Assembly: GCA_026709935.1 (NCBI GenBank)
Contig: JAPOSC010000048.1
Location: forward strand, 62,001-126,000
DNA length: 64,000 bases
Direction of reading: 5' to 3'
Source of the DNA: Thiotrichales bacterium
Lineage (GTDB): Bacteria; Pseudomonadota; Gammaproteobacteria; HK1
In this document: in pieces, positions 38,729 through 42,342 of the stretch
Position numbering within the stretch: position 1 is the first letter of the stretch
Layout of the letters: each line of letters begins with the position of its first letter
Program-made: the position numbers and the translations under genes
Notes under the pieces: model-generated
Seen by the model: only the letters and a program-made list of their open reading frames with translations
Told to the model about the DNA's origin: nothing
The model's database searches: none

Positions 38729-39490
38729 TCAATCCTCGTCCCAGACCGTGTCGGTGAGCGGCAGGCCCTGAAGGTCGTCCGTGGTCAGGGGCCGATCCGG
38801 CGCGACCCCCGCCTGCTCCAGCAGTGACGCCACCTGGCGGACATGCTGCGCGGTGTGCCAGACCGTGCGTTCCAGCATCTCGTGCCGGGTGGTGCCGCCG
38901 AAGTAGGTGGGCACCCGGCCCGAGAATTCCTCGCCGGCGACCCGGTCCCACCACGCCGCGAAACGCCCCCGCACCGCTTCCCCGTGGTCCGCCACCGCCG
39001 CGCTGGTGCGCATGTCGTCCGGCGGCGGTGCGGTCAGGGTTTCGTAGGTGAGGGTGGAGCCGTGCTCCTCCATGTCCAGATAAGCGATGGAGATCTGGAA
39101 TACGTGGTGCATCAGCACGCGCCAGGAGCGGGGCCGGTTCGGCAGAAGATCCTCCAGGCGCGCATCGGGCATCTGCCGCGTGAGACGGACAGCGGTCTCG
39201 AGGACCCGGTCGAGCCTCGCCGCGAGCGCCGCCGGGGAAAGCTCGGGCGCGGTGTCGTCCGGCAACTCCAGAAAGTCGACGACATCCTTGATGACCTGTG
39301 CGAAGACGAACCGACCGTCCCGGGCCACCACCGGTACGGACCGGGCACCCAGCGCACGCAGCGCCTCCGCCCCGTCGCCCTCCAGGACGTTGATGGATTC
39401 GTACTCGATCCCACGGACCGAGAGGTATTCCTTGACCCTGAGGCAGCTCGTTCAGTGCGGCTGCCAGAAGACTCTGATGGTGCCGGTCAT
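38729..39490 (-). CDS. Glutaredoxin-DinB fusion, candidate selenoprotein (in-frame TGA = Sec13)
   Basis: The frame from ATG 39488-39490 runs 254 codons to the stop at 38729 with a single internal TGA at 39452-39454 (codon 13). GGAG lies seven bases before the ATG. The N-terminal part reads TIRVFWQPH-(TGA)-TSCLRVKEYLS, then SVPVVARDGRFVFAQVIKDV, a glutaredoxin-like domain of about 70 residues. Family members have Cys at the TGA position, forming CxxC. The C-terminal 150 residues are a DinB-like four-helix domain (WRVLMHHVFQISIAYLDMEEHG, TVWHTAQHVRQVASLL). Because the only in-frame stop replaces precisely the nucleophilic Cys, selenocysteine insertion (UxxC) is more likely than decay. A weak downstream hairpin (CGAG/CUCG outer and CCU/AGG inner stems, loop CAGGGUCA) could be a SECIS. 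It ends a likely operon 48 bases after the amidase. Confidence 0.78.
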
Positions 39491-39538
39491 GAGGCGTCTC
39501 CGTATCTGTCTTGTTGTCCCCGCGGTGGCGTCAAGACC

Positions 39539-40963
39539 CTATGCCGCCCCGTTCTCCCGTTCCCACAGCGCATGTGACAGGATGCCGACTTCGGATTCGA
39601 TGACCTCCATCGCGTCGAGGATCAGATCCTCGCGGAAGCGGCGGCCGATGATCTGTACCCCGGCCGGCAGGCCGCCCGCGTACCCGATGGGCACCACCCC
39701 CGCCGGCAGGCTCAGGTAGTTGACGCCGGTGCTGTAGATGGCGGAGAGGAACTTGTCCCGGATCTGTTCGAACCCCTGCGCGTCGTAGTCCCACGGATAG
39801 ACCGTGCGCATCAGGAACGGGCACAGCACCAGAGGATGATGTTCGAGGAAGAGGCTCCACTCGCGGGTGAGCATGGTGCGGTCCGCGATGGCCTGCCGGT
39901 ATCCGGCCGCGTCGACCGGCGTCCCGATGCGCTGGTAGTGCTCGAAGATGGTCCGGATGGTCTCGCTGCCGTGCTCGCGCGCCAGGGGGCCGAGGAAGTG
40001 GGTGATCTCGCTCACCAGTACATCGAACCACGCGCGCGCGGGCTTCATGATCGAGGGTGTCGTCACCCGCTCCACCGCGTAGCCCGCATCGCTCAGGGTG
40101 TCCGCGGCGCGTTCGATGCCGGCCAGGATGTCCGGGTGCATCGGATAACCGTGCGTTTCGGTGGTCACCGCCACCCTGATCGGAGGATCGAGCCGCGGCC
40201 CGTCGAACGGGACCGGCATCCACCACGGATCGCGCGGGTCGCCGCCCGCGAGCACCCGGGTCGCGAGCCGCACGTCCCGCACCTCGCGGCAGATCGCGCC
40301 CTGCACGGAGATGAGCTGCGCGAGGAGGCCGCGCTCGGCCAATGCGCTCGGGTTGAAGGCGGGCACCCGCCCGAAGGTCGGCTTCACCGTGGCGAGACCG
40401 CAGGCGAACGAAGGGAAGCGGAGCGACCCCCCGATGTCGTTGCCGTGGTGGATCGGCCCGAATCCCATCGCCGCCGCGGCCGACGCGCCACCCGAGGAGC
40501 CGCCGGGCGACGCCTCACCGTCCCATGGATTGAGGGTGCGGCCGTGGAGCGGGTTGTCCGTGGTCCCGCGCATGGAGAACTCGGGGGTGTTGGTACGGCC
40601 CACGATGACCGCGCCGGCGTCGAGCAGGTTCCGCACCACCGGGGAGTGGTCCGGGGCGATGAGACCGGCGAACGCGGGCAGGCCGTTCGTGGTGGCCTGT
40701 CCCGCGACATCGACATTCACCTTGATGGTGACGGGGACGCCGTGCAGCGGCCCGAGAGCGCCGCCGGCGGCCACCTCCCGATCCTTCTGCTCGGCGGCGC
40801 GCAGCGCCTCCCCGGAGCATTCGGCAACGATCGCGTTGATGCGACCGTTGTGGGCGGCGATGCGATCGAGTACCGACTGTGTAACCTCGACGCACGACAC
40901 TTCGCCCGCCCGGATCATGGCGGCCAGCTCGACCGCGCTCTTGCGCCATGGAACGCTGTTCAT
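39539..40963 (-). CDS. Amidase (amidase-signature family)
   Basis: 474 residues. The Ser-cisSer-Lys triad is visible as K81 (GVPVTIKVNVD), S156 in PGGSSGG and S180 in GNDIGGSLRFPS. C-terminal YLSLPAGVVPIGYAGGLPAGVQIIGRRFRED is family-typical. It hydrolyses an amide of unknown structure; distant glutaminase (GatA-like) features do not imply a role in tRNA charging. A clear GGAG precedes ATG 40963. It lies 50 bases after the COG4091 gene and 48 before the glutaredoxin-DinB gene. Confidence 0.9.
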   Translation of the reverse strand: MNSVPWRKSAVELAAMIRAGEVSCVEVTQSVLDRIAAHNGRINAIVAECSGEALRAAEQKDREVAAGGALGPLHGVPVTIKVNVDVAGQATTNGLPAFAGLIAPDHSPVVRNLLDAGAVIVGRTNTPEFSMRGTTDNPLHGRTLNPWDGEASPGGSSGGASAAAAMGFGPIHHGNDIGGSLRFPSFACGLATVKPTFGRVPAFNPSALAERGLLAQLISVQGAICREVRDVRLATRVLAGGDPRDPWWMPVPFDGPRLDPPIRVAVTTETHGYPMHPDILAGIERAADTLSDAGYAVERVTTPSIMKPARAWFDVLVSEITHFLGPLAREHGSETIRTIFEHYQRIGTPVDAAGYRQAIADRTMLTREWSLFLEHHPLVLCPFLMRTVYPWDYDAQGFEQIRDKFLSAIYSTGVNYLSLPAGVVPIGYAGGLPAGVQIIGRRFREDLILDAMEVIESEVGILSHALWERENGAA

Positions 40964-41013
40964 ATTCGGATCTCCTCGCATGACCGTGATTGCGACGGCT
41001 GAGTCGGGAGCCG

Positions 41014-42342
41014 TCATGCTGCGGCGGGGCGCCGTTCCATGCCGAACCGCGCCTCCATCTCGCGCCGCGCCCGCACCGCCTCCTGTGCCGGGTCGTACTC
41101 CACGTCGTCCCATCCGACGACTTCGCCGGCCTCGACCGCGTGCTTCAGTGTCACCCCATGCGCAAGGCCGATCGGGAGCGCGCCGCGTTCGAGCGACGTG
41201 CGCGCGGGCAGGAGCTTCCCGTACACGGTGAAGCCGCCCTCGCCGTCGAGAGCCTCACCGGCGGCGAGGTCCCGCTTCGCGGTCGTCACCGCGTCGCCGG
41301 TGAAATCCCGGGCGGCGCCAGTCGGACGGCCGAGCAGGGCGGCGGAGAGGATCGACACGTTCAACTCCAGCCCGATGAGGTGGAACGGCTTGTACATGGC
41401 CGAGTATCGGCCCGAGGCATCGGTATTCATGCCGTACTGGCGGAAGCAGGCTGCGGTGTAGTCGTTGGGGGCCTCGATGACCACGTAGACCCCCCACCGC
41501 AGATCATTCGGGACTGGGCGGCCATCGCGTTCGATGGACGACACCACTTCCACCTGACCCCGGTGATGGAGCTGTCCGCCGTCTTCCGTGGGCCGCAGCA
41601 CATGGGCGAGGTCGTCCCGGCCGCAGGGCGGGAACCGCAGACCGTCCGGCGGCGGGGCGAGGCCGGTCGCGTTCGCGATCGCCGCCATCTCGATGGCGGA
41701 CTTGGTGCCGTCGAGAAAGGAGTTGAACATCCGGCTGTTCATGCCCGCGGCCCGCGCCTGCGCCGCGCTGAGGCCGTAGTGGTCCCACACCGTGTCCGGG
41801 GTCGAGCTGTGATAGGAAGGCAGGTACTTCGTGCCCTTGCCGGCCGCTACCACCTCGAAGCCGTTGACGCGTGCCCATTCCACCATCTCGCAGGTCAGCG
41901 CCGGCTGATCGCCGTAGGCCATGGTGCAGACGACTCCGGCGTCGCGCGCCTCCGCCGCGAGCAGGGGGCCCGCGAGCACGTCGGCCTCGACGTTGACCAT
42001 GACGAGGTGCCGGCCGGCCGCGAAGGCGGCGCGGGCGTGGGCGATCCCCGCCGCGGGGTCGCCGGTGGCCTCGACCACCACGTCGACATCGCCGGCGCGT
42101 ATCGCCTCGAACGCGTCGTCAGTGAACCGGGTGCGGTCGAGGAGGGCGTCGTTCCACCCCGTGGCGCGGCATGCGGCGCGGGCGCAGTCCGGATCGAGGT
42201 CGGCGATGATGTTCACTTCGAGGCCGGCCGTCGAGGGCACCTGAGCCAGGAACATCGACCCGAACTTGCCGGCCCCCACGAGCCCGACCCGCACCGGGCG
42301 GGCATGCGCCGCGCGCTCGTGAAGCAGCCCGTGCATGTACAT
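41014..42342 (-). CDS. COG4091-type homoserine-dehydrogenase-like oxidoreductase with SAF domain
   Basis: 442 residues. N-terminal NAD(P)-binding Rossmann motif VRVGLVGAGKFGSMFLAQV, followed by DVVVEATGDPAAG and MVNVEADVLAGPLL. The C-terminal region (YGKLLPARTSLERGALPIGLAHGVTLKHAV) is the SAF-like domain of COG4091. Members oxidise or reduce hydroxy acids in sugar-acid or amino-acid catabolism; the substrate here is unknown. ATG 42340-42342 is seven bases after the PhyH-type dioxygenase stop (ATG 42336 is an alternative). Confidence 0.85.
   Translation of the reverse strand: MYMHGLLHERAAHARPVRVGLVGAGKFGSMFLAQVPSTAGLEVNIIADLDPDCARAACRATGWNDALLDRTRFTDDAFEAIRAGDVDVVVEATGDPAAGIAHARAAFAAGRHLVMVNVEADVLAGPLLAAEARDAGVVCTMAYGDQPALTCEMVEWARVNGFEVVAAGKGTKYLPSYHSSTPDTVWDHYGLSAAQARAAGMNSRMFNSFLDGTKSAIEMAAIANATGLAPPPDGLRFPPCGRDDLAHVLRPTEDGGQLHHRGQVEVVSSIERDGRPVPNDLRWGVYVVIEAPNDYTAACFRQYGMNTDASGRYSAMYKPFHLIGLELNVSILSAALLGRPTGAARDFTGDAVTTAKRDLAAGEALDGEGGFTVYGKLLPARTSLERGALPIGLAHGVTLKHAVEAGEVVGWDDVEYDPAQEAVRARREMEARFGMERRPAAA

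Follow-up and report, generated by a model that had tools for sequence, protein, structure and literature searches.

Does the in-frame TGA in a gene that joins a glutaredoxin domain to a DinB domain encode selenocysteine (Sec), and what would such a protein do? The question was raised by a stretch of 64,000 nucleotides from a Thiotrichales bacterium, hereafter the window, in which a minus-strand frame starts at ATG 39490, ends with a TGA terminator at 38731-38729 and contains a single internal stop, at codon 13, in the context FWQPH-TGA-TSCLRVKE. A preliminary description of this DNA had reported a GGAG motif 7 nt upstream of the ATG and a lone in-frame TGA at 39454-39452, and direct reading of the sequence confirmed both. 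The features needed for the argument are the following.

38729..39490, minus strand: gene of the glutaredoxin-DinB fusion (Grx-DinB), a very probable selenoprotein gene with homologues, 253 codons through the TGA plus the TGA terminator
39498..39501, minus strand: GGAG ribosome-binding site, with a spacer of 7 nt to the ATG
39452..39454, minus strand: codon 13, the presumed Sec-UGA (U of UTSC), at the N-terminal Cys position of CxxC
39404..39422, minus strand: putative bacterial SECIS hairpin CUCGGUC-CGUGG-GAUCGAG, apical loop 36-37 nt after the UGA
39539..41113, minus strand: amidase (PF01425), upstream of Grx-DinB on the same strand with a gap of 48 nt

To compare codon 13 among homologues, relatives were searched and the GTDB-species collection was scanned once, which gave 84 distinct full-length sequences. 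At exactly this codon, 17 of the 84 (the window gene and 16 relatives) carried TGA and the other 67 carried Cys, so that the Sec/Cys exchange, for which an alignment had been proposed as a check, was found at a single column. The TGA does take the place of the first Cys of the glutaredoxin CxxC, as first described, and its position is not due to chance, because it recurs in 17 genomes and is matched by Cys in 67 homologues. The 17 distinct TGA genomes were Gamma- and Alphaproteobacteria, including Gammaproteobacteria of the window's family, one Immundisolibacterales genome, Hyphomicrobiales/Filomicrobium, Acetobacteraceae, a groundwater proteobacterium and G314. Nearly all Sec forms came from metagenome assemblies, G314 being a single complete contig (5.4 Mb, rated 100% complete). 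Protein identity between the TGA forms and the window protein fell as low as about 51%, or lower, and none of the 17 had a second internal stop, the frame and the active-site residues being otherwise intact. Random stops elsewhere in the homologues, which had been named beforehand as grounds for abandoning the selenoprotein reading, were therefore absent from the TGA forms.

In a tree built with IQ-TREE, the Sec/Cys label took three changes, and a single origin is conceivable. Members of the family are uncommon: only two of 399 evenly drawn Pseudomonadota genomes, the window's own and G314, had one at E<=1e-20, both with TGA. Its distribution is also patchy, as the congeneric genome G001 (96% completeness) had no match at all, while the Sec form occurred in three further members of the window's genus and the Cys form in three members of the window's family. 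One Cys form (L074, VRUB01000210.1) came from a bin labelled Nitrospira and grouped among proteobacterial sequences, reflecting either transfer or mis-binning. Cys forms of Burkholderiales and Rhodospirillales are annotated as 'glutaredoxin domain-containing protein' or 'DinB family protein', and several are annotated as whole genes in plasmid records. For the Sec forms, ordinary gene calling would be expected to truncate the gene to a DinB-only fragment or to miss it.

The selenium machinery was then sought in the host genome, a draft of 3.78 Mb with a completeness of 95.9%. All four genes whose presence had been proposed as a check were found: a tRNA-Sec (selC) scoring 73.6 bits and called SeC(tca) by ARAGORN, selB and selA adjoining it on contig C68, and selD. 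Across genomes, a tRNA-Sec of at least 70 bits was present in 13 of 14 Sec-form genomes tested and in 7 of the 25 with the Cys form (Fisher p=1.4e-4, with no correction for kinship); the remaining Sec-form genome has a full-length selB, as does G314. When formate dehydrogenase was considered as a second selenoprotein of the host genome, no match above the cut-off and no in-frame TGA were found.

Two side observations concern this machinery. The host SelD (L018, G000:C51:77009-80926) makes up the C-terminal portion of an open frame of 808 codons, with a pyridine-nucleotide-oxidoreductase-like part in front of it, matching the Ndh-SelD fusions known from Global Ocean Sampling data (PMC2398784), and its active-site loop has Cys rather than Sec (MRCGGCGAKVG). 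Two genomes, G149 (C32, C35) and G162 (C38, C40), each gave two strong tRNA-Sec matches (73.6-79.8 bits) on separate contigs, which may be a gene duplicate or mixed bins.

Decoding of this UGA as Sec would be guided by a hairpin within the coding sequence. The motif UCGRUC-CGUGN-GAUYGA was present in 16 of 16 aligned Sec forms and in L118, and in none of the 67 Cys forms, and its apical loop lay 36-37 nt downstream of the UGA in the Sec forms. The search for a bacterial SECIS that had been advised thus returned a hairpin that fits the model, is kept throughout the Sec forms and is missing from every Cys form. The published bSECIS rules call for a loop of 3-9 nt with G within the first two positions, a stem of 4-16 bp, a distance of 16-37 nt after the UGA and an MFE of at most -7.5 kcal/mol (PMC13188914). 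The window hairpin lies within these limits, with a loop GUG closed by C-G, a stem of 8 bp, a distance of 37 nt and -10.1 kcal/mol (counted alternatively, the loop is CGUGG, the stem 7 bp and the distance 36 nt). Its spacing sits at the upper end of the allowed range, and by our own calculation the energy rule is missed by 4 of the 16 Sec forms. RNAalifold, applied to the 66 bases from the UGA onward, predicted the helix at 39404..39422 alone.

Conservation at the nucleotide level points to the same place. In the Sec forms, the identity of synonymous codons had its whole-gene peak at codons 24-31 (0.87 vs a median of 0.49), and over the same codons it was 0.53 in the Cys forms. The Arg26 codon was invariably CGT in the Sec forms, a codon that makes up 19 of 366 Arg codons (5%) in ten window genes. 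No two-sided covariation was seen in the helix, the only changes being G-U/A-U and G-C/G-U, because the helix barely varies. As 9% of synonymous shuffles of the window gene yielded some bSECIS-like hairpin, this one counts through its conservation alone. Within the host genome, the exact motif occurred at the Grx-DinB gene only; eight places were listed as hairpin loci, and the other seven had no plausible TGA-interrupted gene.

The hairpin that had originally been put forward, just after the TGA with the loop CAGGGUCA, did not hold up as a SECIS. Its stem has no more than 3 bp (CCU/AGG), and other TGA forms do not preserve its sequence, the Acetobacteraceae form having TCTGAAACTCA in place of the loop CAGGGUCA; we rejected it, and the candidate lies instead at 39422-39404.

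Several other readings of the TGA were weighed against these data. It might be a true stop, so that a leader of 12 codons would precede a protein with DinB alone, translated from an internal start such as GTG 39331. An internal GTG frame of 200 codons does exist inside the gene, and it is the one an ordinary gene caller would report. However, codons 14-53, from the TGA to GTG 39331, are strongly conserved in protein with the Cys forms, and S15, C16, K20, S32, V35, G48 and P53 are invariant before the internal start; moreover, the TGA is kept in 17 genomes, always in place of Cys, and the genomes that bear it have the Sec machinery. We consider a true stop very improbable. A pseudogene or a sequencing error would fit one in-frame stop in one draft genome, but the same codon stands in independent assemblies of 17 genomes, one of them complete, and the frame and active-site residues are intact apart from the TGA; the comparative data refute this explanation, and hardly any weight is left to it.

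Reassignment of TGA occurs in some bacteria, and the codon might accordingly be read as Trp through a code change, or as Cys or Arg by suppression. Against this, the window gene and its relatives terminate in TGA, the genome has a tRNA-Sec with the anticodon TCA, and the SECIS is confined to the TGA forms, so we regard such readings as extremely unlikely. On the comparative sequence evidence, selenium insertion at codon 13 is near certain, and Grx-DinB can be taken with very high confidence to be a selenoprotein gene: the candidate first proposed gains support from the machinery, from the Sec/Cys exchange at one column and from a SECIS restricted to the Sec forms. UGA codon 13 would be decoded as Sec by SelB and tRNA-Sec under the guidance of the coding-sequence hairpin, which has its apical loop (C)GUG 36-37 nt past the UGA.

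We further investigated the protein by profile searches and structure prediction, which placed the following features.

39305..39478, minus strand: glutaredoxin domain, residues 5-62, UxxC at 13-16, cis-Pro candidate P53
38771..39235, minus strand: DinB/YfiT four-helix domain, residues 86-240, match 6iz2
39104..39106, minus strand: His129, first ligand of the putative metal triad, invariant in 42 homologues
38843..38857, minus strand: His212 and His216 (HxxxH), second and third putative ligands of the triad, invariant in 42 homologues

The Pfam Glutaredoxin profile (PF00462) matched residues 6-62 with 38.4 bits, above its gathering cut-off of 22.9. Pfam DinB_2 gave 21.9 for the window protein against a cut-off of 24.8, and 34 of 42 family members matched it at E<=0.001. 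AlphaFold2, run on the 42-member alignment (pLDDT 94.9, pTM 0.91), predicted a redoxin domain to about residue 75, followed by a helical domain. By sequence, the N-terminal half resembles solved glutaredoxins and NrdH; by fold, the C-terminal half resembles the DinB/YfiT protein DR0053 (6iz2), with a TM of 0.83 by target length and an rmsd of 2.6 over about 150 columns. The claimed glutaredoxin-DinB fusion is thus borne out by a glutaredoxin profile above its cut-off and by a DinB fold in the predicted structure. A canonical GST was also considered and rejected, as the Foldseek GST matches had rmsd values of 10-16 A and TM values of 0.25-0.44; the GST_N_3 profile scored below its own cut-off for the window protein.

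In the 42 aligned sequences, W9, P11, U/C13, S15, C16, K20 and P53 were invariant in the redoxin half, and R119, R121, H129, W180, R208, H212, Q215, H216, R218 and Q219 in the DinB half. U13, C16 and P53 supply the C/UxxC and cis-Pro features of a glutaredoxin, and H129, H212 and H216 supply the three conserved His in the H..HxxxH pattern characteristic of the STL superfamily. In the model, the C-terminal half adopts a genuine DinB/YfiT four-helix fold and bears the invariant His triad of metal-dependent S-transferases acting on low-molecular-weight thiols.

The nearest known families share parts of this architecture. A single-domain Sec-containing glutaredoxin (PF00462, PMC13188914) is already known and likewise has Sec at the first position of UxxC, but that entry has no DinB domain, unlike the fusion of 253 residues encoded in the window. 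UXX-star proteins (NF041212, NF041211, NF047338, NF041114) share the glutaredoxin-like fold and an active-site Sec; similarity of the window protein to NF041212 is weak (25.7 bits, far under the curated cut-off of 66 bits), they lack a DinB domain, and the window protein keeps the resolving Cys (UxxC). The DinB/YfiT (STL) thiol S-transferases, such as Bacillus subtilis BstA-H and mycothiol S-transferase, share the four-helix fold and a set of three metal-binding His, of which the second and third form HxxxH, but have neither a glutaredoxin fusion nor Sec. They use bacillithiol or mycothiol, whereas the window's genome has a glutathione synthase. H67/H160/H164 of BstA are the sole residues common to eight B. 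subtilis metal-dependent bacillithiol transferases (PMC5815605), and H129/H212/H216 of the window protein resemble in pattern this site, which defines metal-dependent thiol transferases. The Cys-form Grx-DinB proteins of Burkholderiales and Rhodospirillales are 40-50% identical and have the same architecture, length and invariant residues, with Cys for Sec and without the SECIS hairpin.

No DinB-containing entry stands among the 119 prokaryotic selenoprotein families and subfamilies of the 2026 catalogue (PMC13188914), and no NCBIfam model of June 2026 attained its cut-off for the window protein. A DinB-containing selenoprotein gave no full-text match either, the families of Haft and Tolstoy 2025 being covered through the list in the 2026 review. 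Because the searched catalogues hold no such entry, Grx-DinB seems to be a novel type of selenoprotein, a Sec glutaredoxin with a novel fusion partner; the view that the fusion had not been described as a selenoprotein agrees with the 2026 catalogue and NCBIfam. It adds an architecture to the bacterial selenoproteome and, if the reading is true, would be the first selenoprotein to include a member of the DinB/S-transferase-like superfamily. With Sec and Cys forms in related genomes and the surroundings of the active site nearly fixed, the family also offers a clean natural pair for studying the benefit of Sec.

What the protein does can be outlined from its parts. The product would combine a redoxin domain, with the selenol/thiol site U13-T-S-C16, and a DinB/YfiT domain, with a putative metal site of three His. 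In two-domain DinB enzymes, the DinB part carries out thiol transfer and the second domain confers specificity (PMC5815605). The DinB half of the window protein may bind a divalent metal and glutathione and, like other DinB S-transferases, may form or cleave an adduct between a thiol and a small electrophilic metabolite, its metal site activating the thiol or the adduct. The Sec redoxin half would accept the mixed disulfide or adduct so formed, or reduce it, by way of a selenenylsulfide, and compared with the Cys form, Sec might make this step faster or more resistant to over-oxidation.

A role in the transfer or reduction of thiol adducts on glutathione is our tentative proposal, for which we would claim somewhat less than an even chance. 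The same caution applies to its fuller form, a one-chain selenoenzyme that would combine metal-dependent thiol transfer (DinB) with selenol-based thiol removal or recycling, using glutathione in Proteobacteria. The selenoprotein might instead be a plain disulfide reductase in which the DinB half serves only for the binding or docking of a partner, without S-transferase chemistry. Redoxin chemistry alone accounts for the UxxC, and the operons vary between lineages; but the His triad together with R119, R121, Q215, R218 and Q219 is invariant in 42 diverse homologues, and an invariant triad with such surroundings is the pattern expected of a catalytic site. We hold the plain reductase to be a real possibility, though less likely than not. 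The explanation as a whole, a Sec-decoded UGA in a redoxin-DinB enzyme with a putative role in thiol adducts, we consider highly probable. Grx-DinB would indicate that the DinB superfamily, large and for the most part uncharacterised, includes a redox step in bacteria that use glutathione.

The gene neighbourhood was compared for clues to a substrate, and no conserved operon was common to the lineages compared. An amidase, an isochorismatase-type hydrolase, an aconitase, a short-chain dehydrogenase and a DsbA-type isomerase recurred as neighbours, each in few lineages. In the window, the amidase gene and Grx-DinB probably share one transcript. An amidase also stands near Grx-DinB on a plasmid of the distant Roseomonas marmotae (L132:3994-5382), where the operon runs from ABC transporter through isochorismatase, Grx-DinB (Cys) and AtzG-like to amidase; an isochorismatase-type hydrolase adjoins Grx-DinB in R. 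marmotae, L036 and L038. These catabolic neighbours hint, not strongly, at a link to amide breakdown. In SAR116 and Rhodospirillaceae genomes with the Cys form (L085, L087, L096, L098), the gene immediately upstream of Grx-DinB, in the same orientation, encodes an aconitase.
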